The notes beneath the pieces were generated by a model. That model searched no databases, was not told the DNA's origin, and saw nothing but the letters and a program-made list of their open reading frames with translations. The position numbers and the translations under genes are program-made. Below, one piece after another: positions 17,186 through 54,224 of a stretch of 64,000 nucleotides of DNA; the first letter of the stretch is position 1, and each line of letters starts with the position of its first letter. The DNA comes from Cordylochernes scorpioides (lineage: Eukaryota; Arthropoda; Arachnida; Pseudoscorpiones; Chernetidae): NCBI GenBank assembly GCA_030710605.1, contig CP092863.1, positions 57,700,899 to 57,764,898 of the forward strand. The letters run 5' to 3'.

Positions 17186-17345
17186 TTTTGACAAAAAGTA
17201 ATCTATTGACCATCGCCTCAAACTAGAGGCCTCGGATCGGCGACAAAGCCACCACACCAGCTTTGATAAACTGAGAAGCGCCCACCTGGAGAACATGGTT
17301 TCGGGCTATAGCCCATGAAGTTGACTAATGAAATCCTCCGCGCCG
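17186..17345 (-). mobile_element. Decayed hammerhead repeat, family 1
   Basis: Shares ctattgaccatcgcc, then gcctcggatcggcgac, aagccaccacaccagc and cctggagaacatggtttcg with the copies at 43.4 and 52.6 kb. On the minus strand stem II (GGGC/GCCC) and GAAACCATG survive, but the CTGANGA box is destroyed by the change and deletion at about 17312-17325. The ribozyme should be inactive. Confidence 0.6.
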
Positions 17346-18276
17346 AGGCATGGATCAACTTGGCTATTTACATATTAACAAAATGGCGGGGTACGAGAAA
17401 AAAAAAACAGCAACGCAACGAACTAATTATAGTTTGAAGTGGCAGCAGATCTAGATCTCTGGGTTTCCAACTTTACAAAGCTTTCTATCAGAAAAAAAAC
17501 CTATTTATAGACAATAAAGTATATTTACAATATAAATTTATAATAAATATTTTTAAAATATGTTATAATAAAAAATAATAAATTAATTTTTGAGGAGAAA
17601 GATATTCATTTGTAAAAGAGGCATTTTTCCTTTGTAAAATATACATTTATAAACACTGCATTTTGAAGGGTTTCAGTACAAAGGTCTTTGGCTAGGCCGC
17701 ACTTGGATGCCTTTTACAAAGAGAAAGTGTATCTATACATGTTTTCTTCTATTAACTCTGAATATTATATTCCTTTCAAGTTAAAATGTATTTTGTTGCA
17801 AAAAAAAATCATTTTTTTGCCATTTCACTAGCTAAATACCTCTTGCAGATTCAACCTAAATTTATAGCCCAGTTAGCAGGATTGATTTTGTTCGATTTTA
17901 TCAATGCTCAAATTTTGGCATATACGCCGGTTTGACTTTCCATCGATTGAGAGATTTGTTCGCAGCTTCTATTTGCTCTCAACTATGTTTTCTCTGAAGG
18001 TGCTTGTTGGTGTTTTAAAAGGTAACTTACTCGATGGCCATGTCAACTGCAATCAATCAAATTGAATATACAGACAATTTAGTCTAAGCACTACTCTACA
18101 AGAGCAGAGCCTCAAACCGTGACATGATTTAAAATATTATTTTATGTTTGTAGAGGCAATCTTGTTTGAAAAAAGTAAACTAAATATTTAAATTATTTTT
18201 ATTTCGAGACAAAACGACTCATTAACAGAGGTAATTCAGTGTAAACCAAGCAGTCCAGATCCGTGGTGGTGTCCAG

Positions 18277-18412
18277 GAATGTTCCAACTCCACGGGTACC
18301 GGGTCCAAAGCTGCACCGTGTCCGGGAAGAAGAACACGTTCGAGGCCGTCCCTCCCGAGCCGCGCCTTCGACATCTCTACTTCCTCGCGGACACCGATAC
18401 TGACAAGAAACG
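18277..18412 (+). CDS. PH-domain protein, exon for the middle of the PH domain
   Basis: The acceptor gtgtccag|GAATG supplies GA to the single G left by the previous exon, giving a Gly codon and a continuous reading ...[20 protein letters not shown]. It continues [17 protein letters not shown] and [13 protein letters not shown]. These are strands 4-7 of a PH fold; the KKNTFE and LYFLAD steps are typical. The exon ends AAACG|GCAAGT, a well-formed GC-type donor, leaving two bases. The next exon supplies A, making an Arg codon. Phase agreement at both ends is strong evidence that these are real exons. GC content is far above the surroundings. Confidence 0.78.
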
Positions 18413-18491
18413 GCAAGTACTTCCCAACCTGTCAGGCTGTAAAACTTGATAATAAGACCATTAGTAAGATAATAAACTTTTTCTTTTCCCA

Positions 18492-18728
18492 ACCTACAAT
18501 GCCGTAGCACCTTCCTGAGACGACATTCTATGGTCAACTATCCTCTCTTGTCCAGCCTAACATATGCAACACCTCCCTAAGACTACATTCTATGTGCGAC
18601 TAATTTCTCTGGCTCAACCTATCGTATTGTAACCCCTACCTAAGACGACTTCTATGGGCCACTATCCTCTTTTGCAGAATCTATCATACTCTCTCACCGC
18701 CTTAAAACGACATTCTATGAGGCAACCC
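18492..18728 (+). repeat. Minisatellite, about 63-bp unit, four diverged copies
   Basis: Units begin near 18492, 18555, 18617 and 18680. Each has the core acgacattctatgg (variants agactacattctatgtg, acgacttctatggg), followed in the first three by a tatcctct-like segment. It lies about 80 bp downstream of the exon's GC donor. Confidence 0.65.
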
Positions 18729-19715
18729 CCTTCAAAGTTGCCCAATTTTCTATTAACACCAACATTTCAATTTCACTGAATTTTCTGAATTCACCACTTG
18801 GAATTGAAATATAAAGTGATATATTGTGTCGCATAGAAAATAAGAAAATAATTGAACATAACGACAGTCACATAAATATTCCATATCAACAACATCTATA
18901 AGATATAAGTGCATAAAGTTATTAGTACTCTTTTTTTATTTACATAAATAGTTGTGAGACAAGACAGGAAGTTACTACGATATATAGAACTGTAAGGTAT
19001 AGACATTTTTCAAATTCATTTCTCATATTTTTTTCCCATGATGCATAATTGAAAACAAAGTGTGAAATATTATTTTTTCAATAAACAAATTAGTGAAAAT
19101 ATAAACCTTCATTTTTATATACCTATTTATATTTCAAAAATCTCTATAGAATAAAAATACCTAAAAAATCACATATATATTCAACATATATTATAGACTG
19201 CATTTCAGATTAAAAACACAAAAAGGAATGAATATTCAATACACAAAATAAAAGGTAGCCCTATACAGAAAAAAATATTTTTTATTGAATTCTTTTCTCA
19301 ATGAAAAAAAAAAAGTTACAAGAAGAAATAATGCAGGATGAATTCTATGAATATAAAAAGTTTAATAAAAAAGCATTCAAAGAGGGCTTAGGGCGGGGGT
19401 TACAAGCTATATTTGCTCAGAGGAGGGCCCACAAAGTAGATAATGGAAGATTTTAAGATAGTTTGTGAAAAGATGGGGAGGTAAGAGTGAACTATATAAT
19501 CACATTTATATCTAGTTGCACTGTTATTTCTAGAATGGGGCTAACACAATTATTTTATTAAATATTTTTAAAAAGATATAATAAGGAATTTTGGAGGTAT
19601 ATACATTCTTATTTTCAGTAAAATAAAATATAGATAAACTATTTTTAAAACAATCGCATTTTTTACAATTGATAAAAAATTATAACATTCCACTGTATTA
19701 TTATATAATGAAATA

Positions 19716-20018
19716 AAGGTCGCCTATCCTGTCAAAATAGACGTTAAAACTAAGCATCCTCTGTTCACCGTCTCCTCATATTAACGGACTCAGGTGACAA
19801 AGCCACAACACCAGCTTTGTAAAACTAAAAACCGTTCACCTAAAGACCATGGTTTCGAGCTGATGGCTCTCTTCAGCTTAGGGCGGATTTTATTCCATGA
19901 GATCCACAAAGGATAAAATGGAATCTTCACAATCTTCTCAAGAGGTGTTTAGCTGGCAAAGTGGCTAGGCCAAATCTATGGGCAAAATATAGATGGAAAT
20001 TTCCTCCCAGTAAAATTC
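19716..20018 (-). mobile_element. Hammerhead repeat, family 1 (one monomer)
   Basis: Same order of blocks as at 52.6 kb: gtcgcctatcctgtcaaaat, gacaaagccacaacaccagc, a ribozyme, attttattccatgagatcc, agaggtgttt, gctggcaaagtggctaggcc, atagatggaaatttcctccc. About one unit long (the full unit is about 319 bp). Diverged from the 52.6-kb copy, yet the ribozyme remains foldable. Confidence 0.75.
19839..19882 (-). ncRNA. Hammerhead ribozyme motif (family 1)
   Basis: Minus strand reading: stem I CCTAAG / TTTAGG, core CTGAAGA, stem II GAGC-CATCA-GCTC, GAAA, stem III ACC-AT-GGT, cleavage after GTC. Compared with the GGGC/GCCC stem II of most other copies, both sides changed together (GAGC/GCTC). Stem I also keeps pairing through a GU pair. 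Confidence 0.82.
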
Positions 20019-21170
20019 TTATCTATACTGTATTGTTAGTAATGTGAATGTATATGCCCCCCTGACTCACAATAACCAGACTTATATGTGCAGGCAGTCT
20101 TTGTTGAGACATATGTTTTGTAAACAAACTTTATGTATTATAAAGTTAAATAATGCACAAATTTATAAATATCAATGAAATTCTGTAATATACATAAACA
20201 GTTTCTAATTATAAAATATATCATTAAAATATATATTTAAATCACTTTAGGAGCTTGGTTATATTACTCAAATAGTTATTTCAGACTCGAGGCACATCTT
20301 GAATCTAAAAGATATTTTATTACCAATATTACAAAGAGAGCACGCGGTTTATAGTTATCAAGGTTTAACCTGTAGACAACCATAAGACTGTGTTAGAAAC
20401 TTTCTTAATTGCTATTTACAAATAAAAATATTTCAATTCATATATAAATATACGGAACTTATGTTAATTCGAATAATATAAAATATAGATATTATTTCAT
20501 GAGGTTCTTTTAAATTGAGACGAAACTTTCAATTCCGACACACTCAATAGAAGAGTAGTCTTGATAAAGATCGCTTGTCCAAATATTGCACTAAAATATT
20601 TCGCCTGAATCTACGAGATCTTCGAGATTCATCTTATAAAACAGAAGTATAGGTTCTATGGATTGAATTCTATAAAATATTGATGAAGAGAAGTAACATC
20701 AATTCCTTGCTTCAACACACTGCATTGGTCTGCATTTGAAACCTCATCCTAGAAGGCAGTGCACCAAAATAGCAAATACCTATTAATGAATATTACTACC
20801 ATTGATTTCCTTATCAAATCTGCATATGCTCTGAATTCCATCAGATCGATGACCCATGTGTTTGCAAATTGTGGCAGCGGAAACCTGTGCTATTGTAATA
20901 ATATTCAGTAGCACTATCAAGGGATATTTGGTACTTTTTTCACTATTATATTTTATTGTATGAATTTGTGAATAATAATCTTATTTTCAACCTTCGTGTT
21001 GTAATCCAAATTAATTTTATTCTCCTTGTGTGTGGATGTTCTCACGAAAATAAATATTTCTAAGCTCTATGTTTTAGAATATTTTCAAAAATATAGTCGC
21101 TAAATGAATACACCGGGAGATATGCTGATGTGCAAAAGTAAAGAAAAAACGGACAATTTTGATTTTTTTT

Positions 21171-21176
21171 ATCCAA

Positions 21177-21239
<63 letters not shown>
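21171..21239. repeat. Poly-A followed by (TA)n
   Basis: About 20 A residues run directly into about 45 bp of TA, ending gtgtg. This may be the tail of a retroposed sequence, but nothing adjacent is recognised. Confidence 0.7.
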
Positions 21240-21244
<5 letters not shown>

Positions 21245-21298
21245 AAAATTTTACTCAAATATATATGTTTATAGCAATATTCACATACTAAGGTTATA

Positions 21299-21660
21299 TA
21301 TCAGGTTGTCCCATAAATAATGGCCGTTTGGAAGCTACCAATTAAAGACACCATATCTAAGACAAAAAATAGTTTATTTAAACAAAATAAGCACCATTAG
21401 AATCACAGCTTTTATGCCAACCTGATGGTAACAATTTTATGCCATTTTCATAAAAGTCTGGTTATCTTGAGGCCAAAAAATTATTCGTTTCCATGAAAAT
21501 AATTATCCAAACGCTTGAAAAAATGTAAATCAGTAGGGGACAGATCAGGTGGATAAGGAAGGTGAGCTAGACCTTCATAACCTAATTGAGCAATTTTTTG
21601 TTGGGTCGTAAATAAAGAGTGTGGCCGTGCGTTATCGTGAAGCAGAATCGTGTTACCAAA
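21299..21660 (-). pseudogene. Mariner transposase 3' part with terminal repeat
   Basis: Minus strand from about 21660: ILLHDNARPHSLFT, then LPYPPDLSPTDLHFFKRLDN. These hold the second and third catalytic Asp regions of a mariner DD34D transposase. The frame then hits a stop and shifts, after which DFYENGIKLL and KSCDSNGAYF mark the C-terminus. The element ends at 21302 with CAGGTTGTCCCATAAATAAT, a typical mariner terminal repeat preceded by TA. The 5' half and the other repeat are missing. Non-functional. Confidence 0.78.
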
Positions 21661-22815
21661 TTATTTATGTTATTTTTTCATTTCAAAAATGTGTTTCCAA
21701 AAACAGCCATTATTTTTGGGACCACCAGATATATATCCAGTGAGTTTTATTTATATATTGTACAAAAACATGGCTATTAAACATGAAATTGAAGATTTAT
21801 TTTCTTTATTGTGTGGTATATATTACTCTAGATTATAATATGTAATTCATATTAAAATTTATTTTAATTATTTTTCGGTAATTTCCAATTCCAAACCTAT
21901 CAGGCATCTAAATTGCGAATATTTACACCTTGTAAAACAATTTTAAATATTCGAAACTTTCAACGTTCTTTATAGCAAACCATTGGCTATTATATTATAA
22001 AATGGATATATATATATTAAATAATGTACCTTGAAAGGCACCTTTAATTATGTATCAGAATGATGCATTATGTTCAATATAAATGGTGAGATAAATAATG
22101 AACAACAGTTTTGACAAATTCAAACAAATTTTCAACCTATATAAAATGGTTTCGGGATATTTGTCAGGTAAAGCACAACATTTCTTTCTATTACATTTCT
22201 TAAATAAAGAAAAGATTACTGTTTTGTTCGAGTGATCTCCATTTTAACAAAACCTTGAACAGAAAATCATAAATAAGAACCATTAATCCACTTGTCGACT
22301 GTTGATTTTTAATCTGAGAGTGATATAAATAAACATTCTCTGGATTGTTGAATTAAAACTAAGAACAAAAATCATATTTATGAAAAGGCTAGGCGAATTA
22401 TAGATGATTAAAAGACCTCAGATCAAATAAATATTGATCCTTTCCTTATAAAAGCTAATAATTTACTCCATTCTTTCGTTGATAAAGGTAGTACGACAAT
22501 GGGTTTCTATTTCTATATTGACAACTGTAAACTTTCAAACTAGGCTTATCTTCTCGGTTCCGTTGAAGATCACCATAGTCTTGATATCTTGACAGTTATT
22601 AATTAACTAAATTATTTTCCCTTAAAAGGCTATCATTATTACCAGTTATAATATTAAGCTCTAAATATTCTATCATAATTTTTTATTAAGTCAAATATGT
22701 GTGTGTCATCAACCAAACATATAATATGAAAACATCATTTTTCTGCGCATTCATCTATTTGTTTGTATGGAGATTGTGCCACTTATAATTACCAAGAAGG
22801 GTCGGTGTGTTCTAG

Positions 22816-22858
22816 ATGGCTGGCCGCGCTCGAATACTCCATCGACCGCTGGTTCCAG
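22816..22858 (+). CDS. PH-domain protein, exon for the C-terminal helix
   Basis: 43-bp exon between tgttctag and gtcagc. Its first base completes the Arg codon begun by the previous exon. It then reads WLAALEYSIDRWFQ, the amphipathic C-terminal helix of a PH domain with its near-invariant Trp, directly after DTDKKR in the joined protein. It ends in phase 0 at a GT donor. Later exons would be downstream, but none was recognised before 27 kb. Very short, so its support comes from phase, splice signals and fit to the PH fold. Confidence 0.72.
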
Positions 22859-22964
22859 GTCAGCTGAGCTCTGTGATATAATAAATCTGCTCACTTTTGT
22901 ACTCAACTGTTGCAATTCGGCCTCTTTCTGTTTTTTTTTTTAATACAACACCTGTTTAGACTCC

Positions 22965-24140
22965 TGCGGTGATTGGTGGAGACTTGTAGCAAGATGTACT
23001 CAACTGTTGCAACCCGGTTTCTCTCTGGATTCTTTCAACCTACAACATACCTTTAGACTCCTGCAGTGAGTTGTGGATACTTAAAGCAGGATGTACTTAA
23101 CTGTTGCAACCCGGTTTCTCTCTCTCTCTGGATTCTTTCAACCTACAACATACCTTTAGACTCCTGCAGTGAGTTGTGGATACTTAAAGCAGGATGTACT
23201 TAACTGTTGCAACCCGGTTTCTCTCTCTCTCTCTGGATTCTTTCAACCTACAACATACCTTTAGACTCCTGCAGTGAGTTGTGGATACTTAAAGCAGGAT
23301 GTACTCAACTGTTGCAACCCGGTTTCTCTCTGGATTCTTTCAACCTACAACATACCTTTAGACTCCTGCAGTGAGTTGTGGATACTTAAAGCAGGATGTA
23401 CTTAACTGTTGCAACCCGGTTTCTCTCTCTCTCTGGATTCTTTCAACCTACAACATACCTTTAGACTCCTGCAGTGAGTTGTGGATACTTAAAGCAGGAT
23501 GTACTTAACTGTTGCAACCCGGTTTCTCTCTCTCTCTGGATTCTTTCAACCTACAACATACCTTTAGACTCCTGCAGTGAGTTGTGGATACTTAAAGCAG
23601 GATGTACTTAACTGTTGCAACCCGGTTTCTCTCTCTCTCTGGATTCTTTCAACCTACAACATACCTTTAGACTCCTGCAGTGAGTTGTGGATACTTAATG
23701 CAGGATGTACTTAACTGTTGCAACCCGGTTTCTCTCTCTCTCTGGATTCTTTCAACCTACAACATACCTTTAGACTCCTGCAGTGAGTTGTGGATACTTA
23801 AAGCAGGATGTACTTAACTGTTGCAACCCGGTTTCTCTCTCTCTCTGGATTTTTTTCAACCTACAACATACCTTTAGACTCCTGCAGTGAGTTGTGGATA
23901 CTTAATGCAGGATGTACTTAACTGTTGCAACCCGGTTTCTCTCTCTCTCTGGATTCTTTCAACCTACAACATACCTTTAGACTCCTGCAGTGAGTTGTGG
24001 ATACTTAAAGCAGGATGTACTTAACTGTTGCAACCCGGTTTCTCTCTCTCTCTGGATTTTTTTCAACCTACAACATACCTTTAGACTCCTGCAGTGAGTT
24101 GTGGATACTTAAAGCAGGATGTACTTAGCTGTTGCAACCT
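22965..24140 (+). repeat. Minisatellite, about 103-bp unit, 11-12 copies
   Basis: The unit runs gcaggatgtacttaactgtt, gcaacccggtttctctct, ggattctttcaacctacaac, atacctttagactcctgcag, tgagttgtggatacttaaa. Inner copies are nearly identical, differing mainly in the number of CT pairs (3-6) and in single bases (aaagcagg/aatgcagg). Outer copies at about 22.9 and 24.2 kb are diverged, typical of expansion from the centre. It starts about 110 bp after the last PH exon. Confidence 0.93.
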
Positions 24141-24734
24141 GACCTCTCTCTCTGCTATATTTTGCCTTACAACAAATATTTACATTCCTACGGCGATTGG
24201 TGGAGACCTGTAGCAGAATATACTTAATTGCTGAAACTCGGCTTCTCACTGGTTTCTTTCAACATACAATAATTCTTTGGTCTCTTGCGGCACTTGTATA
24301 GATTCAGAGTTAAATTATATATAGAGATACGTAGCTCGAACTGAACTGCTGCGATGGGGTCTTATTGATTTAATCCTTTGATTTTTCAGCTTGTTTAGAA
24401 AGAATAGAACCCACATGGCATTCGTTTTTTTTTTTTTCATTTAACACAAATACAACTATGGTTGCACAATAATATTTACTCGTATACAGGTCCTTCAAAG
24501 AATTTTATAAACGCGATCGAGATCAGGTATTTATAATAAATAAATAATCCCACTTCAGTCTCATAATCATAGATCTTAATATATCTTTATCTCTCTCTCT
24601 CTCCCCGCGCAGTTATTTATTTTAAAACTACAACAACCTTGGCCTCATTTTACTGCGACAATTTGTAGGATTTTAAAAACAAGGCTATTACACTATTTCT
24701 CTTTGTAATATATATAAATATGTGAAAAAATAAT

Positions 24735-25142
24735 GGAAAAAAAAATAGAAAAGGCCAGGTGCGCTGAAATTAAAAACAAAAGTAGGCATACCCTGATCAC
24801 TAACATGAGAGCTATTTAGATTCAGAGCGCCATCTTGTGGAACAGAAATCAACTAAACGTTGATTTAACCTGTTTCTTGATATTTGGCCAACCCATATTT
24901 TTGATAAATCAAGAAAAGCCAACCACGAACGTGTTTCGGGCTGTTGGCCCTCCTCAGCGTGGCGCAGGCTGTACCTCTACGACTGAAAATGTTTTGGTCT
25001 CAGAAACTTCTTGAGAAATCAAGAAATGGATATTTAAGGCCAAATTTGCGTAAATAAGCTGCAAAAGGGGAAAAGATAATTTTTAGAAATAAAAAAGGTC
25101 AGGTGTTGGTATTAAAATCAAAGAAGGCATATCCTGACCACG
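24735..25142 (-). mobile_element. Hammerhead repeat, family 3 (about 1.15 units)
   Basis: The block aggccaggtgcgctgaaatt ... ggcataccctgatcac at about 24754 recurs as aggtcaggtgttggtatt ... ggcatatcctgaccac at about 25093, about 339 bp later. Between them are a CTCF-like box, a cttgat/atcaag hairpin, the ribozyme and a tatttaaggccaaatttgcg block. So this is more than one unit of a tandem repeat with a single ribozyme. It runs into CpG-rich sequence at 25143. Confidence 0.7.
24923..24962 (-). ncRNA. Hammerhead ribozyme motif (family 3 variant)
   Basis: Minus strand: stem I CCACG/CGTGG, core CTGAGGA (variable position 7 is G), stem II GGGC-CAACA-GCCC, GAAA, stem III AC-AC-GT, cleavage triplet GTT. 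All invariant core bases are present. The palindrome seen in other copies (ACGCGT) is lost, so dimer-type stem III pairing would be weaker. Confidence 0.78.
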
Positions 25143-25334
25143 TGCTCGCCGGCAGCCAACGGGCGCGCGCCGCCGGTAGGAATAAATTTTCATTTTTTGC
25201 TATAACTGATCTAATTCAGCGTTTAAAATACCTGCTCTTGCTATATTTGCTATGTTTTATTTTACAATGTTTTATGTGTTTGAATAATACATTTAATCGT
25301 GTAAACCCGGGCGTTGCCCGGGTCATTCGTCTAG
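25143..25334 (+). mobile_element. Helitron 3' end
   Basis: A 19-nt hairpin ACCCGGGC-gtt-GCCCGGGT (25305-25323), then CATTCGT and CTAG (25331-25334) followed by T. This is the standard Helitron 3' terminus and target base. The 5' end was not located; sequence from about 25143 to the hairpin is provisional. Confidence 0.6.
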
Positions 25335-25559
25335 TTATCAATATAATAAGAAGTCTCTTTCTCTCTTAACTTATCTCTCTCTCTTCGTAGGATTCAATAT
25401 CTGTTTTGGGGAGCTATATACTTTTCATGACATTCATCTATAGACTGTGCACTTTTGCCTATATTTTGACGGGATGTCAATAGAACTATGTTATTTGTCA
25501 TTTGTCTTAGGTCGTTGATTTATGTATAGATTCCCCAACAAGCCCTTTCTTGATTCTCT

Positions 25560-25780
25560 CCCCCTTGACACATTGTAAATAACATTGCTGATTATTGTAA
25601 CTATTGCTGTTATTCCTGTATATACCCTCTTCTACTTGGAGAAGCTGTATAAGACCAAAGGGTCATAACAAGGACTTTTGTTGTTGTTATTACTGTTATT
25701 CTTGGATGTACCCTTTATTTTCGTGCTTGGAGAATCCGTATGGGACTGGAATGTCTTAATAAAGCTTTTTGTTGTTATTG
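25560..25780 (+). repeat. Tandem LINE-like 3' tails
   Basis: Two diverged copies of a block reading cttggagaagctgtataaga ... aaggacttttgttgttg and cttggagaatccgtatggga ... aataaagctttttgttgtt, each ending in a GTT-type repeat. Similar sequence occurs at 95-150. Likely 3' UTR remnants of a LINE; the coding part is absent. Confidence 0.45.
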
Positions 25781-27098: not shown

Positions 27099-27236
27099 AG
27101 AGAGAGAGATTGAGATTGAAACTGATTTATTACAATGTTCATATAAGTACAGAGTAAATATAAATATTAATAAACAAGATTAAATAAGGATAGCTATAGA
27201 TAAATAAATGTAAAATATGAAATTGATATATATATA
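27099..27236 (-). mobile_element. 3' end of a Tx1-like LINE with (TC)n tail
   Basis: Minus strand: ends cattgtaataaatcagtttc, aatctcaatctctctctc. The same tail closes the LINE copies at 59222 and 61601. A polyadenylation-like AATAAA lies just before the tail. The 5' side is interrupted at a TA tract by an LTR insertion. Confidence 0.62.
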
Positions 27237-27571: not shown

Positions 27572-27588
27572 TATATATATTAGATATA

Positions 27589-39568: not shown

Positions 39569-39572
39569 TATA

Positions 39573-40100
39573 TATATATCAAGAATAGCCATCCACGAAC
39601 GCGTTTCGCGTTTTGTCAAGAAATTGGGTTGGCTAAATATCACGGAGCAAGCTGAATAAACGTTTAGTTTATTTTTGCTCCACTAGATGGCGCTCTGCCA
39701 TCTAAAAAGCACATGTGCTCGTGGTCAGGAGATGCCTTCTTCATTTTTAATATCAACACCTGACCCACTTATCTTTTAATGTTTTATATTGTTTTTTCAT
39801 GTGTTAAGCGTCTATACGCAAATTTGGCCTTAAATACCCATTTCTTGATTTCTCAAGAAGCCATTGAGAACAAAAATATTTTTGGTCGCAGTGGTTACAG
39901 CCTACTCCACGCTGGCGAGCGCCAACAGCGCGAAACGCGTTCGTGGATGGCTTTTTTTGATTTGTCAAGAAATTGGGTTGGCCAAATATCACGGAGCAAG
40001 CTAAATAAATGTTTAGTTTATTTGTGCTCCACTAGACGGCGCTCTGCCATTTTAAAAGCACATGTGCTCGTGGTCAGGAGATGCCTTCTCTATTTTTAAT
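39573..40100 (+). mobile_element. Hammerhead repeat, family 3 (about 1.4 units, one inverted scrap)
   Basis: The block tcaagaaattgggttggc at about 39617 recurs at about 39966 (349 bp), with one ribozyme between. At the left edge, 39573-39612 is the ribozyme's stem I/III side in the opposite orientation, so the copy begins with a short inverted piece. CTCF-like boxes at 39680-39693 and 40029-40042. Flanked on both sides by (TA)n. Confidence 0.75.
39907..39946 (+). ncRNA. Hammerhead ribozyme motif, core mutated
   Basis: Stem I CCACG/CGTGG, stem II GCGC-CAACA-GCGC, GAAA, stem III AC-GC-GT, triplet GTT. The first core box reads CTGGCGA, so the invariant A6 of CUGANGA is G. Cleavage should be lost or very weak. 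Confidence 0.72.
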
Positions 40101-40339
40101 ATATATATATATATCACTCAGAGGACGAAGCTGAAATACTATTACGGCCCCCTCGGCCCAGCTAAAAAGTGTAATTTTTGAAAATTTTGAAAAATACTTT
40201 AAGCATGATCCAAATGAAATATTAATTGTAATAATGGTAAAAATAAGTGTTGAAAACATTATAAAAGATAAATTTTAAAAATAAATTCAATATATATTTT
40301 ATTATTAAATTTTGAAAAAATCAAAATTTTATTCAAAAA

Positions 40340-41251: not shown

Positions 41252-43019
41252 TTATACCTTATAATAATCTTTTATTGTATGGTAAAGTTTGAAGCAATCA
41301 CCAAGGCATAGTGGAACTAGGCAGGTCTCACATTCATAGGCTGTATCTTTTCTTGCCTGCTTGCCAGAGGTTACCCTGCCTTTTTCAGCGCAAACTTTGC
41401 ATCTGCGTTGGGCATATGTTTTGCCTTCAACTTTGATTCGGCGAATAAAATGACGTCCAATAAGTCGATCAGATTGTTCATCGCTTGAAGGTTGAGCATC
41501 AAGAATATCTTGATTGGCTTCTGAGCAAAGAGCTTCGCATATTGAAATATGGAAGTCCCTCAAAGACATTTTAGCATCAGGATTCAATTTATTGTAAATT
41601 ATGCATGAATTTACAATAGCAAGTCCATATATATGGAAAAATAGTTTCTTCCACCATTTCATTGTGCGTCGATCAAAAGAATAATAGGAGAGCATCTGGT
41701 CACTTCGGTCCACTCCAATTTTATTCATATTGTAGTCAAGAACAACTTGTGGTTTGAATATTGGAGCTTGAGAAAGTCCAGACCTCCCCATGACTTCAAC
41801 CATTTGATGGTCGTGAACAGTTGAGATCATCCAAACATCTCTGGTGTGGCGCCATTTCATTGCCATTAGGCTACCCTTGAATTGATGCATTTCTTCACCT
41901 TTCTTCAATTTTTTTGAAAAGGATTTCTTAGGAAGACCTTTCCTATTAGTTTTTACTGTACCAACAGCCATTGTTTTCTTTTCCCATAGATAGTTGAAGA
42001 GGTGGGGCGAAGAAAACCACCTGTCACAATAAATGATGTGACCTCTGGTGAAGAGATGAGAGGCCAATCGTTCTACCAAATTTGGTATAGAGTTATAGCC
42101 TTCTTCCTGGCTTGGATGTTTACCTGTGTATATGTTGATATTACAGGTATAACCAGAATTGGCTTCACAAATATGGTAGATCTTTATTCCATATTTGTGA
42201 GGCTTGCCTTTTATGTAAATACGGAACCTTATTCTTCCTCTGAATGGACAAATAGCTTCATCAATGGTCAGATTCTGGGTCGGGGAATAAAGGCATTGGA
42301 ATTTTTTGGTAAGAGGATCTAGAAAAGTTCTTATTTTATATAGAGGATCATGTCCACTTTGTCCAAAAGGAATATAGGAAGAATTATCAGCCAGGTGAAG
42401 CATTGACAAAATTGCTTCGAACCTATTTCTAGCCATTATTTTTTTACAGAAAGTGGTATTGAGGACAGAATTGGCGGACCAGTAATCTTTCATTCTTGGC
42501 TTTATAACAAGGCACATGTGTATAATGCAGGCAAAAAATAACTTTATTTCTGCAATTGACACAGCTTTCCAATTAGCCAGAAAGCTATATGCCTTGAGAG
42601 GACCCCTTTTCTTCTGTTTATCAATTGTAATCAATTGTAAAAGTTTTGAAAATATTATATGGGGACATTGTTTGTGTAAAAAAATCCATTTTAGGTCCAG
42701 GTTGGTCTAAGAAAACCGGACAGTTTACTGAGGGATTCCGAACATTTGCCCAACCCTCATCCTGGGGCTCTTCAAGTCTCCTTTGCTTAGATGGAGGCTG
42801 AGCAAATTCTCCTTCTTCCAAATCATATATTTCAGTTTCATCTGAATCCAGGCATTCAACATAATCTGGATCAACAACTGGATCATCAATTTCAGACCCA
42901 GAATCAGAGCAAAATTCGTCTAGATGTTTTTCATCAAGAGAATATTTATAAAATGGACCTACCAATTTGGAGGTGCTTGGTTGACTAGGATCCATCATAA
43001 AATGAAAATAATCCTTCAA
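41252..43019 (-). pseudogene. piggyBac-type transposase, one frame break
   Basis: Two minus frames: an acidic N-terminal part (43019-42621, rich in Asp/Glu) and the catalytic part (42634-41252). They join near PYNIFKTF / LLQLITID with a one-base shift and perhaps a small deletion. Catalytic Asp residues sit in LTIDEAICPF (D125), IYCDRWFSS (D204) and NKIGVDRSDQMLSYYS (D309). The C-terminus has a cysteine-rich finger: RRCKVCAEKG, then YECETCLVPLCLGDCF and a His. PiggyBac transposases excise precisely at TTAA. Apart from the break near residue 125 of the whole protein, the catalytic frame is open over 460 codons, so inactivation looks recent. Confidence 0.9.
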
Positions 43020-43224
43020 AAAAAGTATTTTATAAGTGAAAGATATTAAAAATAAGACAAAAAAACAAGAGCGCTATAAATAGGTAAGTTGAGCACACTG
43101 CAGTTGTTTACAGAAGAGGCAGGAAGTGGGAAATCACGTGTGCCATGATGTAAAGGGGGTGGAAGGGGGGCGAGAGGGAGGGGAGGCGCCTGTCAAGGTC
43201 ATGTCATCATGAGACGGCCGCGAA

Positions 43225-43372
43225 AAGTTGTTGGGGCCAGGTGCCCAATGACGTGGATTGCCACCCGATTTTCTATTGATTTTTAAAGTTTCATGACGTG
43301 AACCACGTCATTGGGGTTTGGTGCTTTAATAGCAATGACGTGGATCCACGTCATTGGGGTTGAAAGTGATAT
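43225..43372. repeat. Subterminal inverted motifs of the piggyBac element
   Basis: Repeated blocks ccaatgacgtgga and ggttcacgtca-type complements occur three times (around 43245, 43295 and 43340). They include caatgacgtggatccacgtc, a near-perfect palindrome continuing to attg. They lie upstream of the transposase 5' end as subterminal binding sites would. A TTAA-flanked terminal repeat pair was not found; the right boundary is set by the hammerhead repeat that begins at about 43379. Confidence 0.5.
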
Positions 43373-43536
43373 GTAAGATTTGCCGGGAGGAAATTGATCC
43401 ATGAAAGCATAGGGCGCCTCTCCCGTTAAAATTAACGTCAAAAGCTGACGCCATCTATTGACCGTCGCCGCAAACTAGTGGCCTCGGGTCGGCGACAAAG
43501 CCACAACATCAGCTTTGGCAAACTGAAAAGCGTCCA

Positions 43537-43580
43537 CCTAGAGACCATGGTTTCGGGCTAATGGCCCTCGTCAGCTTAGG
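43537..43580 (-). ncRNA. Hammerhead ribozyme motif (family 1)
   Basis: Minus strand: stem I CCTAAG/TCTAGG (one A-C mismatch and a GU pair), core CTGACGA, stem II GGGC-CATTA-GCCC, GAAA, stem III ACC-AT-GGT, triplet GTC. Core intact. Confidence 0.82.
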
Positions 43581-43725
43581 GCGGACTTTATTCCATGAGA
43601 TCCACACGGGATCTAATGGAATCTTCACAATCTACCAAAGAGGTGTTTTGCTGGCCCGGTGGCTGGGCGTGTGGATCTCATGGAATCTTCACAATCCCGT
43701 GTGGATCTCATGGAATAAAGTCCGC

Positions 43726-43769
43726 CCTAAGCTGACGAGGGCCATTAGCCCGAAACAATGGTCTCTAGG
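43726..43769 (+). ncRNA. Hammerhead ribozyme motif, stem III altered
   Basis: Same arrangement as its inverted partner. After GAAA it reads CAATGGTC, so the third stem III pair is lost and the ACCATGGT palindrome is broken. Core boxes intact. Confidence 0.75.
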
Positions 43770-43774
43770 TGGCG

Positions 43775-44526: not shown

Positions 44527-44538
44527 TGTATATAATCC

Positions 44539-44540
<2 letters not shown>

Positions 44541-44580
<40 letters not shown>
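44541..44580. repeat. (TA)n microsatellite
   Basis: Uninterrupted TA run between the LINE fragment and the 350-bp hammerhead dimer. Confidence 0.9.
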
Positions 44581-44587
<7 letters not shown>

Positions 44588-44727
44588 TGGCATATCCTGA
44601 CCAGGAGCACATGTGCTTTACAGAAGGCAGAGCGCCATCTGGTGGAACAGAATTCAACTAAACATTGATTTAGCCTGTTCCCTGTAATTTGGCCAATCCA
44701 ATTTCTTGATAAATCAAGAAAAGCCAT

Positions 44728-44767
44728 CCACGAACGCGTTTCGCGCTTTTGGCGCTCGTCAGCGTGG
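44728..44767 (-). ncRNA. Hammerhead ribozyme motif (family 3)
   Basis: Minus strand: stem I CCACG/CGTGG, core CTGACGA, stem II GCGC-CAAAA-GCGC, GAAA, stem III AC-GC-GT, triplet GTT. All core bases are present. Relative to family 2, stem II changed on both sides (GCGC/GCGC instead of GGGC/GCCC). Confidence 0.84.
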
Positions 44768-45077
44768 AGTAGGCTGAACCACTGCGACCAAAAAATATTT
44801 TTTGTCTCCCCAATGGCTTCTTGAAAAACCAAGAAATGGGTATTTAAGGCCAAACTTGCGTAAATACGCTTAGCACATGAAAAATCGAAAGAAAAAAAAA
44901 AGATGAAAAGATCAGGCGTTGAAATCAATATTAAAAATGGCATATCCTGACCAGGAGCACGTGTGCTTTACAGAAGGCAGAGCGCCATCTGGTGGAACAG
45001 AAATCAACTATACATTGATTTAGCCTGTTCCCTGATATTTGGCTAACCCAATTTCTTGATAAATCAAGAAAAGCCAT

Positions 45078-45117
45078 TCACGAACGCGTTTTGCGCTTTT
45101 GGCGCTCGTCAGCGTGG
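45078..45117 (-). ncRNA. Hammerhead ribozyme motif, G12 mutated
   Basis: Same as the unit 350 bp away except that GAAA reads AAAA, so the catalytic G12 is replaced, and the outer stem I pair is lost (CCACG/CGTGA). Predicted inactive. Confidence 0.75.
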
Positions 45118-45215
45118 AGTAGGCTGAACCATTGCGACCAAAAAATCATTTTTGATCCCAATGGCTTCCCGAAAAACCAAGAAATGTGTATTTAAGGCCA
45201 AACTTGCGTAACCCA

Positions 45216-45950
45216 CTTTCATTTTTCCTATTGTTTTTCATTATAATATATATTTAAAAAATTGAGGTATATATATTCTATTTTATAAATTTAATATTTC
45301 AAATGTCGTGTTTATATTAAGATGAAAATAATAGAATACAACAATGAAAGAAATAAAATATGAATATCTCATTTTATTGGAAATTCTAGTAACATAAATT
45401 ATTTTCACTCAAAATCCACAATCAGCCTTATATATAGAAGTGGAAATATTTTAGAGTAAATATTTATATTTTATGCTGTTTTAAGAAGTTAGTATAATGT
45501 CGATCGAAGCGTTGTTACAATTCGATGTTAATGGAAGCTGTATCTTTCTGTTTGTACCATAGAGCGGTAGAAAATGGCGCATCGTCCTGTATTAAGTTTT
45601 GCCCAGATCCCAGGTTGAGAGGGATGATTACTTCTACAGAGTTTTGAGAAGGTTTGAGGAAAGAACACCACAATGCTTATAAGTAGCAGATTGGACATCA
45701 AATATTTCTCGGTTGTGATTGATTTTTAAATGTATGTAACTAGTTGGTTGTGTGAAGGATTTATAATTTCTGCGTAATATTTCTCCATTTGAGCTGATTG
45801 ACCGGTTCATATTTGGAATATTCTTGAAATTCGTTTTGTAGAGCAAATCAATTCTCGCATTTTCTTCCAGGTGGAAGTCCTTCATCTTTTAAGATGCTTG
45901 GAAGACTTTGGGTAGAGCTAATTCCAATTTTTCTTTAGAAGAGAACTTCT
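45216..45950. other. AT-rich stretch before the second Gypsy pol
   Basis: No recognised feature. A minus-strand frame of 83 codons (45634-45885) has no domain. I looked for a left LTR for the following pol and found none. Confidence 0.35.
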
Positions 45951-45953
45951 AAA

Positions 45954-48790: not shown

Positions 48791-48886
48791 TGTACCTATT
48801 TTATTTTAATTTGTAATATTATTTTTGATATATTTTGAATTCAAATTTATATTTATTTATTTTATTAAACAGAATATATATATATA

Positions 48887-49164
48887 TGTCGTATTAAGGT
48901 AGTCTTTGAATAATTATAAATTTACAACTCTAAATTTGTATATAAGAAATAATAGACGCGACAAAAAGAAACGCAGCCATTTTCCCTTTGTTTATTTTCC
49001 AACTCCTTTGTTCTCCTCTCTTCCCTCTTACCCCTCGGGTCGTTGGTCAAAAAATTATATACAAACATTGGCTATTTACTCTTTGATTATAGATATTAAA
49101 ATATATGGATATTAAAATAAAAAAGGTGTTGACTATTTACAAGTAGTGTGGGAATTATATTGCA
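48887..49164 (-). repeat. 3' LTR of the gag-protease element
   Basis: 278 bp, TGT...GCA on the plus strand. Contains a CT-rich block (ttctcctctcttccctctta) and gcgacaaaaagaaacgcag. Confidence 0.75.
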
Positions 49165-50119
49165 GTGAACCTGTGGGGGTGTGCGCAAGATGAAATTCGT
49201 AGCTGCACAGTCTAGATAAAATTTTTAATTTTCTCTGAATTGAAAATATCCTAACGAGGTTATGATATACTATTTAATTTTAAACTGTTATTTATTACAT
49301 CTTTATTCTCTAATAAGTCGATAGGATTCGAACAGTGCGGGGTTAAAAAGCTAAGACTACGGATGGTAGATTTCTCGGCCACGATTGCTCACTTTAAAAA
49401 TGTTCATATCTTTCTTCATCCTACGATCCCTATTCTTCCTATCGTTGGCCACAAGTTGGCTAGACCTATGTTCCAACCTGGAAGTCTGGATAACGTTGTC
49501 TGTGTACTTTTTCCTAGGATATACTCGTACATTGAGTTTACGACTCACTCAATGGAAGTACATAGGTCAAAGCACTACAGCCAAAATTTTCTTCTTTTTT
49601 TTTCTAATTCGAACTAACATTTTGAAGTGCTCATCTTTGGATAGGTTTTACCGAACATCGATTTTCGAAACTAACCGATGGGGTTATACCATATCTTAGA
49701 GGATGATGTGTTTAAAAATCCAAAATTTTATTTTTTCTTTTAACCCTCGATAGTTTATCTTATAAAAACGCTTATACTAATCCTATAGTTGTTCTATCGT
49801 ATTACTATACGTAAATTAACTTATTACTATTGTCCTAAATATATCTGTAGGCCTTTACATCTTGTCTGTCCTACACCAGACAAAACGAACGGAGGTATGC
49901 GGGGTTGTTATACCCGACTAACGATAAGCGCTAGCCTCTGCATATTGTAAGGTCGCTAAAGATATTTATAGGCTATTTAAACCCACACACGCATTAAGTG
50001 TTTTTATGTTCACATTTTAAAGTAATATATTCAAGTCTTCAAGGTCATATATAATTTGAGTTTATAGCTTGATTAAAATTATCATATCGCCTCATATAGT
50101 CCAACATTACATTTATATA

Positions 50120-50635
50120 CTAATTTATATATTCCACTATTCTAACGGTCCATTTTATCAAGAACATTTTATAAGAGATATGTAGGTTTGTTTGCATGGG
50201 TAGAGGTAAGATATAAAACAATAAAGGAAGAAGGTATATACAAGATGCTAAATGAGTATAAAGAATCCAAAATATTATTGTGGTAATTAAAAACAATGGA
50301 AATTTTTTAATTCTAAATATAACAGTTTTATACAACAATGTACACAGAGTGATAACATTATTTATTAACGAGTCTTTATTTAAATAATGTGAAAATTCTT
50401 TGGTCGCCAAGGTTGTTGGTATAAAGACATCGGCATTTGGATTAAGTTTACTGTGTAATTTTTCTTTGGTAGCCCCCAAATTACTTTCCACCATATTATC
50501 GAATGGGTTGATTTTAGGGTCTAAGACCAATGTACTGGATTTAGTGGGCTTTACTATTGATGAAAATGTTGGTTTGGATGTTATTGGAAAATCAGGCTTA
50601 TAAAATTTTTCATCCGTGAAAATACTGTTGTCCAA
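50120..50635 (-). CDS. 3' ORF with PAM2-like motif and hydrophobic tail
   Basis: Overlaps the end of the gag-protease frame by about 55 bp in another frame, which extends upstream as FNHLDNSIFTDEKF. Residues 62-73 (50417-50452) read SKLNPNADVFIP. This fits the PAM2 consensus S-x-L-N-P-N-A-x-x-F-x-P, by which host proteins dock on the MLLE domain of cytoplasmic poly(A)-binding protein. The last 60 residues are very hydrophobic (FPLFLITTIIFWILYTHLAS and on), as a membrane anchor or AT-rich read-through would be. It could be the remains of pol/env C-terminal sequence. Function inferred only from the motif. Confidence 0.5.
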   Translation of the reverse strand: MDNSIFTDEKFYKPDFPITSKPTFSSIVKPTKSSTLVLDPKINPFDNMVESNLGATKEKLHSKLNPNADVFIPTTLATKEFSHYLNKDSLINNVITLCTLLYKTVIFRIKKFPLFLITTIIFWILYTHLASCIYLLPLLFYILPLPMQTNLHISYKMFLIKWTVRIVEYIN

Positions 50636-51990
50636 ATGGTTAAACGGTTGAAACCATTTCCTTGGTCTGGAGGAAATATTTCCGCAAATTCTTTCAATAA
50701 CCTAATTAACTTAAGGTCTAATAAGTTGTTTATCTTATGATACTTATCAATTAAATCACTGGTTAACTTATTTTCCCCTGGAATGCTTGATTGAGTGGAA
50801 AGTGTCTGTTGTAAATGATTAACATAGAGTGGATTACTTCCTGAAGGTGCACAGTGATTATCTAAGATTTGTGTATTAACAATATGAAGGTGTTGGTTTA
50901 TATTATATTTCCTATCTGAATTTATCACATTGTATGCATCATTTACATAAGCCAAATCTGTTTCAAAATAAAAAAGAGTAGCAGGAATATTTTTGCCTTG
51001 TTGACTCACTACATTTCTATTGAAGTCAATTCTAGTTTTTAATTTTTTTAGAGTATATAATCCTATTAGTGCAATTTCATATGGTAGATGAAATATATAA
51101 AATTTTAAGCTAACTTTTCTTTTAAAAAAACTGACTGGTAAAATAACATAAAATATAGGTTGGATTGGTCCACTCAATGTATTAATTCTAGAATGCTTAT
51201 TAACTGAATATTTAGTTATATTTCGAAATATATCTGATGGCAAAATTTTATGCAAATAATCAAAAGATATTAGGTTAATGGTAGAGCCAGTATCCACAAG
51301 AAATTTAACATTGAAGGTGAAAATAGATAAATTAAAGAATAGTCTTACATTATGCTGGTCCTTTCCTTGATGAGGGATCACATCCTTGTGATCTGGGTTG
51401 ATGTCGGCTCGATGTGGCTGTTTCCCTAGGTTCGTTGGGCAGCGTGTTATCCGCGTAGTTGCGAAAGGCAAAAGTCCACTTCCAGGTCTGCGAAACGCTA
51501 ATTGTCCATATTGTGGCCGGTAATGTCCTTGGCCAGGCGAGGGAGTGCATTCGGGTCGCCAGCGGTCAAGGCCACGCTGCGGTGTCGGTTGTCCTCGAGC
51601 ACTCGTTACTGGCCGGATGGTGTTTACATAGTCCAACCATTCTTCAGGCGTCTGTGGGTTCCTGGTGTATATCATTTTCTTCAAATCATACGTTACACCT
51701 GCCGTAAGTGCTTCAACAATATGTTTGTTTTGAAGTGAGTTCTCTAATGCACCCACAACCTTAAAATGGTAATAATCGTTAATTTTTTCTGGCTTTTCCA
51801 ATTGGCGAGTGAACAATTCTTCCAACGTTGTCTTATTCTTTGATATATAGATTGTGGACAGTTTCTGTTTGATATTTAAATAAGTCTCTTGTTCTAAGCC
51901 CAATCGATAAAATATATTTTTAGCTTCTTCTTCTAAATTTAGAATAACTAATTTTTTTTCTGTCTCGTTCATCGTTCGTTGCATCCTCAA
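50581..51990 (-). CDS. Gag-protease polyprotein of the LTR element
   Basis: 469 codons open without interruption. The N-terminal 130 residues are a helical gag-like segment (ETYLNIKQKLSTIYI, then EELFTRQLEKPEKINDYYHF). A Pro/Arg/Gly-rich middle (around 125-180) may bind RNA; no CCHC knuckle is seen. The retroviral-type aspartic protease has FLVDTGSTINLIS (DTGS about 233-236) and LPYEIALIGLYTL, matching the usual I/L-L-G motif less exactly. It ends LLKEFAEIFPPDQG, which resembles the lead-in to RT (LL-x-F-x-x-x-F/I-x-x), and then leaves the family. Intact frame with deleted pol suggests selection or recency. The start is the first Met in frame after the leader; Met 3 is an alternative. Confidence 0.72.
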   Translation of the reverse strand: MRMQRTMNETEKKLVILNLEEEAKNIFYRLGLEQETYLNIKQKLSTIYISKNKTTLEELFTRQLEKPEKINDYYHFKVVGALENSLQNKHIVEALTAGVTYDLKKMIYTRNPQTPEEWLDYVNTIRPVTSARGQPTPQRGLDRWRPECTPSPGQGHYRPQYGQLAFRRPGSGLLPFATTRITRCPTNLGKQPHRADINPDHKDVIPHQGKDQHNVRLFFNLSIFTFNVKFLVDTGSTINLISFDYLHKILPSDIFRNITKYSVNKHSRINTLSGPIQPIFYVILPVSFFKRKVSLKFYIFHLPYEIALIGLYTLKKLKTRIDFNRNVVSQQGKNIPATLFYFETDLAYVNDAYNVINSDRKYNINQHLHIVNTQILDNHCAPSGSNPLYVNHLQQTLSTQSSIPGENKLTSDLIDKYHKINNLLDLKLIRLLKEFAEIFPPDQGNGFNRLTIWTTVFSRMKNFISLIFQ

Positions 51991-52286
51991 TGTTACGAAA
52001 GAAAATATTTATATCTTGATTGAGGCCAGAGAATTTACTTATATAATTTTTATTTGAGATCGTCTGTTGTGTGTGTGTGTGTGTTGTGTAATTTGTGTTA
52101 GTAAATTAATTTGTTCTTTCATTAATTTAAATTACATATTATCGTTTCTGTCAGAAAAATGAGTGTCGGTATCTGACTTCCTTTTTGGCATTTTTGTGGC
52201 GAATGGGTAGGCTAAAGGCTAAATCTAATAAAGTTTTAAAAAAAGAAAAAACGTACCGGTTATTATATCCTGTGTCGGCTAAATAC

Positions 52287-52569
52287 TGTCGTATTAAGGT
52301 AGTTTTGAATAATTATAAATTTACAACTCTAAATTTGTATATAAGAAATAATAGACGCGACAAAAAGAAACGCAGCCATTTTCCCTTTGTTTATTTTCCA
52401 ACTCCTTTGTTCTCCTCTCTTCCCTCTTACCCCTCGGGTCGTTGGTCGAAATATTATATACAAGCATTGGCTATTTACTCTTTGATTATAATTATAGATA
52501 TTAAAATATATGGATATTAAAATAAAAAATTTGTTGACTATTTACAAGTAGTGTGGGAATTATATTGCA
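52287..52569 (-). repeat. 5' LTR of the gag-protease element
   Basis: 283 bp. Same order as 48887-49164, with an extra attata near its right end and other small changes. Followed by (TA)n that leads into the palindromic hammerhead repeat. Confidence 0.75.
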
Positions 52570-52749
52570 TATATATATATATAGATGGAAATTTTGCCGG
52601 GAGGAAAATGATCTAAAGAGACAAGGGTCGCCTCTCCCGTCAAAATAGACGTCTAAAACAGACGCCATCTATTGACCGTCGCCGCAACTAGCGGCCTCGG
52701 GTCGGTGACAAAGCCACAACACCAGCTTTGGCAAACTGAAAAGCGTCCA

Positions 52750-52793
52750 CCTGGAGACCATGGTTTCGGGCTGATGGCCCTCGTCAGTCCAGG
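52750..52793 (-). ncRNA. Hammerhead ribozyme motif (family 1, intact)
   Basis: Minus strand: stem I CCTGGA/TCCAGG with six perfect pairs, core CTGACGA, stem II GGGC-CATCA-GCCC, GAAA, stem III ACC-AT-GGT (palindrome ACCATGGT), triplet GTC. Confidence 0.88.
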
Positions 52794-53069
52794 GCGGACT
52801 TTATTCCATGAGATCCACACGGGATCTAATGGAATCTTGACAATCTGCCAAAGAGGTGTTTTGCTGGCAAAGTGGCTGGGCCATATCTATGGCCAAAATA
52901 TAGATGGGAGAGGCGACCCTTGTCTCTTTAGATCATTTTCCTCCCGGCAAAATTTCCATCTATATTTTGGCCATAGATATGGCCCAGCCACTTTGCCAGC
53001 AAAACACCTCTTTGGCAGATTGTCAAGATTCCATTAGATCCCGTGTGGATCTCATGGAATAAAGTCCGC

Positions 53070-53113
53070 CCTGGACTGACGAGGGCCATCAGCCCGAAAC
53101 CATGGTCTCCAGG
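53070..53113 (+). ncRNA. Hammerhead ribozyme motif (family 1, intact, inverted copy)
   Basis: Exact counterpart of 52750-52793 on the other strand, six-pair stem I included. All core bases present. Confidence 0.88.
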
Positions 53114-53412
53114 TGGACGCTTTTCAGTTTGCCAAAGCTGGTGTTGTGGCTTTGTCACCGACCCGAGGCCGCTAGTTGCGGCGACGGTCAATAGATGGCG
53201 TCTGTTTTAGACGTCTATTTTGACGGGAGAGGCGACCCTTGTCTCTTTAGATATATATATATATATTAAGAAAAAGGCATCTCCTTATCGTGCAACTGAA
53301 AGTTGCTGATGGCTGGCGCCATCTATCGGAATAAATATCAACTATTCTCGTTGATTTTTAATTATTCCAGAATTGGCCAAATACCCATTCTTGATTAATC
53401 AAGAAAAGCTAA

Positions 53413-53452
53413 CCACGGACGCGTTTCGGGCTGTTGGCCCTCATCAGCGTGG
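53413..53452 (-). ncRNA. Hammerhead ribozyme motif (family 2, intact)
   Basis: Minus strand: stem I CCACG/CGTGG, core CTGATGA, stem II GGGC-CAACA-GCCC, GAAA, stem III AC-GC-GT (palindrome ACGCGT), triplet GTC. The canonical core. Confidence 0.9.
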
Positions 53453-53750
53453 TGCAAGCTGTACCTCAACGACCAAAAAATTGGTCATTAAGGCATCTTG
53501 AAAAATCATGAAACGGGTAAATAAGGCCAGAATTGCGTGAGGACGCTACACAATGTGAAAAAATAGTACAAATGTAACATTGTACTGGGATAAGGTGCAT
53601 AAATTAAGAAAAAGGCATCTCCTTATCGTGCAACTGAAAGTTGCTGATGGCTGGCGCCATCTATCGGAATAAATATCAACTATTCTCGTTGATTTTTAAT
53701 TATTCCAGAATTGGCCAAATACCCATTCTTGATTAATCAAGAAAAGCTAA

Positions 53751-53790
53751 CCACGGACGCGTTTCGGGCTGTTGGCCCTCATCAGCGTGG
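53751..53790 (-). ncRNA. Hammerhead ribozyme motif (family 2, intact)
   Basis: Identical to the motif 338 bp to the left, in the same orientation. Two ribozymes in tandem would release one 338-nt monomer from a transcript. Confidence 0.9.
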
Positions 53791-53977
53791 TGCAAGCTGT
53801 ACGATAAGGAGATGCCTTTTTCTTAATTTATGCACCTTATCCCAGTACAATGTTACATCTGTACTATTTTTTCACATTGTGTAGCGTCCTCACGCAATTC
53901 TGGCCTTAATTACCCGTTTCATGATTTTTCAGGATGCCTTAATGACCAATTTTTTGGTCGTTGAGGTACAGCTTGCA

Positions 53978-54017
53978 CCACGCTGATGAGGGCCAACAGC
54001 CCGAAACGCGTCCGTGA
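53978..54017 (+). ncRNA. Hammerhead ribozyme motif (family 2, inverted copy)
   Basis: Same core and stems on the plus strand. The outermost stem I pair is lost (CCACG/CGTGA). Confidence 0.86.
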
Positions 54018-54224
54018 TTAGCTTTTCTTGATTAATCAAGAATGGGTATTTGGCCAATTCTGGAATAATTAAAAATCAACGAGAATAGTTGATATTTATT
54101 CCGATAGATGGCGCCAGCCATCAGCAACTTTCAGTTGCACGATAAGGAGATGCCTTTTTCTTAATTTATGCACCTTATCCCAGTACAATGTTACATTTGT
54201 ACTATTTTTTCATATATATATATA

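Follow-up and report, generated by a model that had tools for sequence, protein, structure and literature searches.

Hammerhead-bearing, retrozyme-like repeats of a pseudoscorpion and the Penelope-like anatomy of their insertions

A stretch of 64,000 nucleotides from the pseudoscorpion Cordylochernes scorpioides (GenBank assembly GCA_030710605.1, contig CP092863.1, positions 57,700,899 to 57,764,898, forward strand; called here the window) contains a dozen small hammerhead ribozyme motifs set in short tandem repeats. By what machinery are such non-coding units copied and dispersed? An earlier note, made from the sequence letters of the window, had proposed that they are retrozyme-like elements. 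The junctions of the insertions, read in the window and in the whole assembly (2.62 Gb, 24 contigs), support the view that three families of these repeats are retrozymes, Penelope-like at their DNA ends and yet not Penelope elements. In the reading considered likely here, they are non-autonomous, non-coding retrozymes whose RNA is copied by the machinery of Penelope-like elements (PLEs) from both ends of a broken target.

Hammerhead motifs and the families that carry them

A strict type I descriptor (CTGANGA, stem II of at least 3 bp, GAAA, A15.1-U16.1 plus at least 1 bp of stem III, H17, and stem I of at least 4 bp) recovers eight of the 12 window motifs (19839-, 24922-, 44727-, 52750-, 53070+, 53412-, 53750- and 53979+, with the strand as sign). 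It recovers none in 60 Markov-1 random sequences of 64 kb, and the hammerhead pattern has no match in viral contigs. Two further motifs (43537- and 43726+) escape the descriptor through one stem I mismatch each, and two have altered cores, CTGGCGA at 39907+ and AAAA instead of GAAA at 45078-. All 12 lie where the earlier note had placed them. Its claim that each has the full core holds for ten, including the two with a stem I mismatch, and fails for 39907+ and 45078-, and its decayed thirteenth motif at 17285 belongs to a family A fragment.

The fold was examined in 18 aligned motifs from the window and from random loci. Stem cells are paired in 95.8% of cases, and sliding the partners by 1-3 columns abolishes the pairing. 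Two-sided changes in stems I-III fill 34 cells, compared with 11.4 ± 2.8 after shuffling, and none of 500 shuffles reaches 34. This covariation of stems between families supports the fold and confirms the motifs as real. Stem III is very short and palindromic (ACGCGT, ACCATGGT). A second 4-bp part of stem I, past an internal loop, is paired in families B and C; 77.8% of its cells are paired, and the family A register is, by eye, one base off. Together with a loop II of 5 nt (by eye), this second part makes tertiary contacts possible. The isolated 44727 and 19839 motifs have a minimum free energy fold other than the hammerhead.

The three families are non-coding, with units of 319 nt (A), 338 nt (B) and 350 nt (C), exactly the lengths first read from the window. 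The retrozyme-like class proposed for them stands as well, the units being free of open reading frames (ORFs), 319-350 bp long, furnished with type I hammerheads, tandem, dispersed and present in many recent copies. Density was sampled with one 10-kb locus at 20 Mb on each of 20 contigs; 15 of the 20 loci hold arms, 36 in all, which cover 5303 of 200000 bases, and the reversed sequences of the same loci gave no hits. Extrapolation from these 20 loci puts the genome total at roughly 470,000 fragments, or about 70 Mb. For family A, scoring 40 of 854 candidates gave at least 119 exact matches 338 nt long, counting that of the window itself, and these point to recent activity. The longest family A array listed has about nine 319-bp units (C17:38272617-38275506), and in family C ten consecutive 350-bp units of identical score follow one another uninterrupted (C24:58356001-58359500). 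Folded as circles, the sense strands are more stable than shuffled sequences (z -6.5, -9.6 and -5.3; 59-67% paired), and the antisense strands are likewise stably folded (z -3.7 to -7.2).

Anatomy of the insertions

The order of the arms is invariant. All 39 young two-strand insertions seen are head-to-head, with minus units followed by plus units (A 16/16; B 15/15 distinct, leaving out duplicates L040 and L049; C 8/8). The opposite order occurs across (AT)n between the A and B copies of the window (53252/53261) and in extra short arms of L024 (2474-2656) and L047 (911-978), all scored as adjoining separate insertions and not as one.

The outward 3' ends of young copies cluster at two places, site 1 and site 2. 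Numbered from the first base 3' of the cleavage site (p1), these lie at p142-146 and p171-178 in family A, at p149-157 and p198-207 in B, and at about p155 and past p200 in C, so that site 2 is about 30-50 nt 3' of site 1. All 33 young two-arm insertions with both ends determined use each site once, at opposite ends (A 14/14, of 17 examined with the window's included; B 12/12, of 15; C 7/7, of 8). Family C ends were read from match coordinates only, by whether the match continues past site 1, and the site 2 end of L078 was accepted despite a 2-nt insertion. Under independent choice of ends, the 26 unlike-end cases of A and B would have a probability of 1.5e-8. Among ten older two-arm cases, seven agree within about 30 nt (L003, L005, L006, L007, L011, L021 and the window pair at 8150), L012 disagrees and two could not be scored. 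The only 8-mer common to the three units, AGATGGCG, lies at p86 in A, p94 in B and p93 in C, about 60 nt before site 1, and is a candidate recognition element.

Both patterns can be seen in the family A and family B pairs of the window, listed here with a single family C arm:

52579..52907, minus strand: family A arm, 1.03 units of 319 bp; 3' end at site 2 (p177, tail present) at (AT)n
52750..52793, minus strand: type I hammerhead, descriptor intact
52903..53252, plus strand: family A arm, 1.10 units, head-to-head with 52579..52907; 3' end at site 1 (p145) at (AT)n
53070..53113, plus strand: type I hammerhead, descriptor intact
53261..53802, minus strand: family B arm, 1.60 units of 338 bp; 3' end at site 1 (p157) at (AT)n
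53412..53453, minus strand: type I hammerhead, descriptor intact
53750..53791, minus strand: type I hammerhead, descriptor intact
53795..54215, plus strand: family B arm, 1.25 units, head-to-head with 53261..53802; 3' end at site 2 (p203, tail) at (AT)n
53979..54016, plus strand: type I hammerhead, descriptor intact, stem I of 4 bp
44578..45211, minus strand: family C arm, 1.82 units of 350 bp; 3' end at site 1 (p155) at the (AT)n tract 44539-44581
44727..44768, minus strand: type I hammerhead, descriptor intact
45063..45128, minus strand: hammerhead with core AAAA for GAAA, probably inactive

The targets are AT-rich. Alternating AT runs with a length of 10 or more adjoin 23 of 26 ends in family A and 21 of 32 in family B, as against 138 of 28500 background windows (0.48%). 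Most targets are (AT)n, in which a duplication would be invisible. Outside (AT)n, four insertions have one by eye, of 12 bp at C14:51595907 and L006, 9 bp at L007 and about 8 bp at L021, and none is visible at L012, L035, L041 and L044. Head-to-head order, two fixed 3' ends and (AT)n targets go beyond what the earlier note recognised, and the anatomy of head-to-head arms with two unlike fixed 3' ends is the new element of this analysis; none of the titles and abstract openings listed by searches of open-licence literature describes head-to-head retrozyme arrays.

Two loci on one contig, L040 and L034 (C17:33969894 and C17:34108265), hold one family B insertion twice, with near-identical flanks about 138 kb apart, probably through segmental duplication; L046/L049 looks like a second such case.

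The other copies in the window, several of them old or fragmentary, are listed next, and the first two were absent from the earlier note:

4306..4501, plus strand: family C fragment; 5' end at most 2 nt from the cleavage position, running to site 2 by eye
8150..8288, both strands: old inverted pair of family B with its ends at p202 and p152
17201..17314, minus strand: decayed family A fragment
19700..20002, minus strand: old family A copy; hammerhead 19839-19882
24726..25148, minus strand: C/B-like copy, 1.23 units; 3' end at site 2; hammerhead 24922-24963
39601..40102, plus strand: family C copy, 1.42 units; 3' end at site 1; hammerhead at about 39907 with CTGGCGA core
43371..43668, minus strand: old family A arm; hammerhead at about 43537 with one stem I mismatch
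43694..43772, plus strand: family A fragment; hammerhead at about 43726 with one stem I mismatch

The window has four other features. A sub-threshold twister-P1 match at 14920-14974 (plus strand; 31.4 bits, cut-off 67.2), in which CCGGTCCCAAGCCCGG and GAGGG agree with the model consensus, is probably a decayed twister ribozyme. A tandem array of a 103-bp unit occupies 22955-24153 (11.7 copies, 95%), and at 41252-42706 (minus strand) an open frame encodes a piggyBac transposase with 92% identity to a protein of C. scorpioides. The mir-31 hairpin match at 56629-56707 (minus strand; 43.4 bits vs cut-off 51, E 2.2e-6) is possibly the host mir-31 locus.

Template and copying machinery

The proposed route begins with transcription of the arrays. 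The type I hammerhead would then release single units by cleavage, perhaps acting as a dimer in view of a stem III of only 2-3 bp, and a host ligase would close unit-length circles. A Penelope-like reverse transcriptase (RT) with a GIY-YIG nuclease, acting in trans, would cut both strands of an AT-rich target, whereupon both target 3' ends would prime the RT on the RNA, one from site 1 and its partner from site 2. After part of a unit to several laps on each side, the two cDNAs of this double-ended reaction would be joined mid-way. The product would be a head-to-head array whose 3' ends face outward, flanked by the 8-12 bp duplications where these are visible.

The template was probably circular, judging from the units of single insertions. 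Family B units diverge by 1.25% within an arm, by 1.30% between the arms of one insertion and by 2.82% between insertions, a contrast equalled by none of 500 label shuffles (the duplicate pair L046/L049 was treated as two insertions). Variants specific to one insertion recur from lap to lap, as far as the laps are covered, on both arms of L030, L027 and L035 and on the single arm of L042. Family B has 171 variant columns, in which a base departs from the majority and two or more units give coverage; 49 of them are common to all units of the insertion. Such sharing fits laps round one circle followed by later private mutations, but transcription of a homogeneous array would give nearly the same result. 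Support for the circular-RNA step is indirect and comes from multi-unit arms whose laps share variants.

A template in the form of a linear multimeric transcript of a homogeneous array, with no circle, is a doubtful but serious possibility. Shared variants, and arms that reach 5.86 units among the loci read, are expected from a transcript of identical units too; 122 of the 171 variant columns are not common to all units; and in one arm of L052 a variant appears in every other lap. Variants peculiar to one insertion nevertheless return in the laps of both its arms, as in the three loci named above, and published metazoan retrozymes, expressed in linear and circular form, yield abundant circular RNA (PMC7229834, main text). 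At C13:11894978-11897548, one-mismatch matches fall at every third unit of the plus arm and at none of the minus arm; dimeric or trimeric circles may account for this array and for L052.

The candidate source of the RT is the PLEs of the same genome. The searches made found no Penelope RT in the window, as had been noted before, and autonomous PLEs are abundant elsewhere. A regular expression for PLE motifs returned only Gypsy-type RT from the retrozyme-locus DNA, and it also missed the GIY-YIG frames in L032 and L018. A genome search with PF01541 (GIY-YIG) gave at least 146 matches, all above the cut-off, with 150 of 17,015 first-look candidates scored. In L032 a GIY-YIG frame of 316 aa, P0121, ends at a family B insertion. 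P0121 has 127 genome matches, 69 of them at one score (402.2; 62% identity to P0121) and mostly in 824-aa frames; GIY-YIG lies near the start of open frames of 824 or 828 aa. The 300 nt upstream of one GIY-YIG match are non-coding in all three minus-strand frames, consistent with a position near the N-terminus. Same-strand neighbours are spaced 4280-4292 bp apart in 25 pairs, a 4.28-kb period (the count omits wider gaps, e.g. C1:179287908-179297040 and a 5.3-kb gap on C24), and all eight two-strand clusters within 15 kb are head-to-head, a layout matching that of the retrozyme arrays. In a related protein, P0129, GIY-YIG occupies residues 111-202 of 730, presumably with further RT motifs, and P0131 has RVT_1 and matches the P0121 linker (35% over 69 aa). 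These 4.28-kb PLEs with N-terminal GIY-YIG are taken here to be of the Naiad type.

The properties described for PLEs agree with the junctions in several respects. Their biochemistry includes two RT start sites, a 'tail', cutting and extension of both strands and a preference for AT (PMC11167929), and Penelope inverted pseudo-LTRs (pLTRs) have the tail on one of them and duplications of 8-10 bp (PMC3846280). Could the repeats then be solo or tandem pLTRs shed by a PLE, with no independent retrozyme? Inverted ends with one tail, the minimal type I hammerheads of pLTRs (PMC7761336) and the abundance of PLEs in this genome speak for this origin, which is nonetheless unlikely. Ten uninterrupted 350-bp units, or about nine of 319 bp, leave no room for an ORF, and such arrays set back a solo-pLTR reading. 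A PLE would have an ORF with telomerase-like RT and GIY-YIG between its pLTRs; the arrays are uninterrupted units. The best-represented PLE, moreover, keeps its own 4.28-kb period, and the additional stem I pairing of families B and C exceeds the minimal pLTR form.

The fold-back model put forward for Adineta Penelopes (PMC3846280), self-priming on an antisense template, would account for head-to-head order. Nearly palindromic inner joints are found in only two of 26 pairs (L047 and L007), and in the other 24 the inner 5' ends are more than 10 nt apart, from which the arms are usually two separate cDNAs. Self-priming also gives no reason for the far end to lie at the other start site in all 33 determined cases, and is accordingly disfavoured as quite improbable. 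Ordinary satellite DNA expanded through unequal crossing-over, with which the tandem units agree, is hardly credible, being contradicted at the junctions by short arrays dispersed on many contigs, fixed 3' ends, target duplications and inverted halves.

The inner 5' ends of family B recur, p43-49 being paired with p112-130 (L024, L031, L041, L043 and L044), and these recurrent ends sit near hairpins of the circular fold. The 57 5' ends examined are non-uniform (Kolmogorov-Smirnov p 0.009).

Several observations count against PLE-driven copying of circular retrozyme RNA. The PLE start sites in vitro are the same for both strands (PMC11167929), unlike the one-of-each pattern found here, and in the older pair L012 one end lies at neither site. 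The 122 variant columns not shared by all units of an insertion outnumber the 49 that are, L046 is mixed for its lap variants, and L052 misfits a single monomeric circle. Of the 57 5' ends, two are no more than 3 nt away from the cleavage site, where 1.2 would be expected (3/58 with the 4306 window copy, which is outside that list). This absence of enrichment suggests that arms are usually not terminated by a hammerhead cut, and it speaks against hammerhead cleavage as the origin of the copies' 5' ends, an idea prompted by the 4306 copy. An RT is attributed to the P0121 element through its relatives, and no sequence link between PLEs and retrozyme RNA was found, the non-coding ends of the PLEs being outside the sequences compared. 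The GC of units B (0.40) and C (0.41) is within the range below 45-50% given for metazoan retrozymes, and that of unit A (0.51) is above it. Finally, an Rfam scan of the window found no match at the gathering score, so that the earlier note would fail the covariance-model test that it had set, but the stems do covary. Hammerhead_HH9 was matched by six copies, two of them core-mutated, at 24-31 bits (cut-off 52), and a plausible reason for the low scores is a stem III of only 2-3 bp; RF00163 gave no matches over the whole genome, but control genomes also gave no signal, which leaves this search uninformative.

A more specific proposal, evenly balanced on present evidence, is obligately asymmetric two-ended integration, in which one PLE complex would break an AT target and place its two subunits on one RNA circle, one invariably at site 1 and one invariably at site 2, and both would run rolling-circle laps up to the joining of the cDNAs. 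If so, PLEs would be the mobilisers of animal retrozymes, PLE head-to-head ends would be explained without self-priming, and the job of the hammerhead would be to make an endless template; the 4.28-kb PLE arrays suggest that the autonomous element would use such a template too. The retrozyme junctions bear a Penelope signature, by which the matter becomes testable in any retrozyme-rich genome. They bear on the origin of PLE head-to-head ends, for which self-priming was proposed (PMC3846280), and on the purpose of PLE hammerheads, the role of which is called unknown in PMC7761336.

Comparison with known systems

PLEs and their pseudo-LTRs share with the present elements the type I hammerhead, inverted head-to-head ends, an optional tail, AT-rich targets, duplications of 8-10 bp and two RT start sites (PMC3846280; PMC11167929). 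They differ in that the retrozyme units have 319-350 bp and no ORF, whereas the local PLE has 4.28 kb. Minimal PLE hammerheads reportedly cleave as dimers, in work by Luense et al. from 2017. The hammerheads described here resemble these in the very short palindromic stem III and differ in the second stem I part past the internal loop and the 5-nt loop II.

Metazoan non-LTR retrozymes, as described in the main text of PMC7229834, likewise have type I hammerheads and non-coding tandem units of 170-400 nt with high self-pairing. Helix III is very short in the axolotl units (331/353 nt) too, and metazoan duplications are longer than those of plant retrozymes (>4 bp), as are those of about 8-12 bp at four insertions here. 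Among the differences is the GC of unit A, 51%; head-to-head arrays with two fixed 3' ends are absent from that main text. On balance, the young ORF-free tandem arrays appear a better fit to metazoan non-LTR retrozymes than to Penelope pLTRs.

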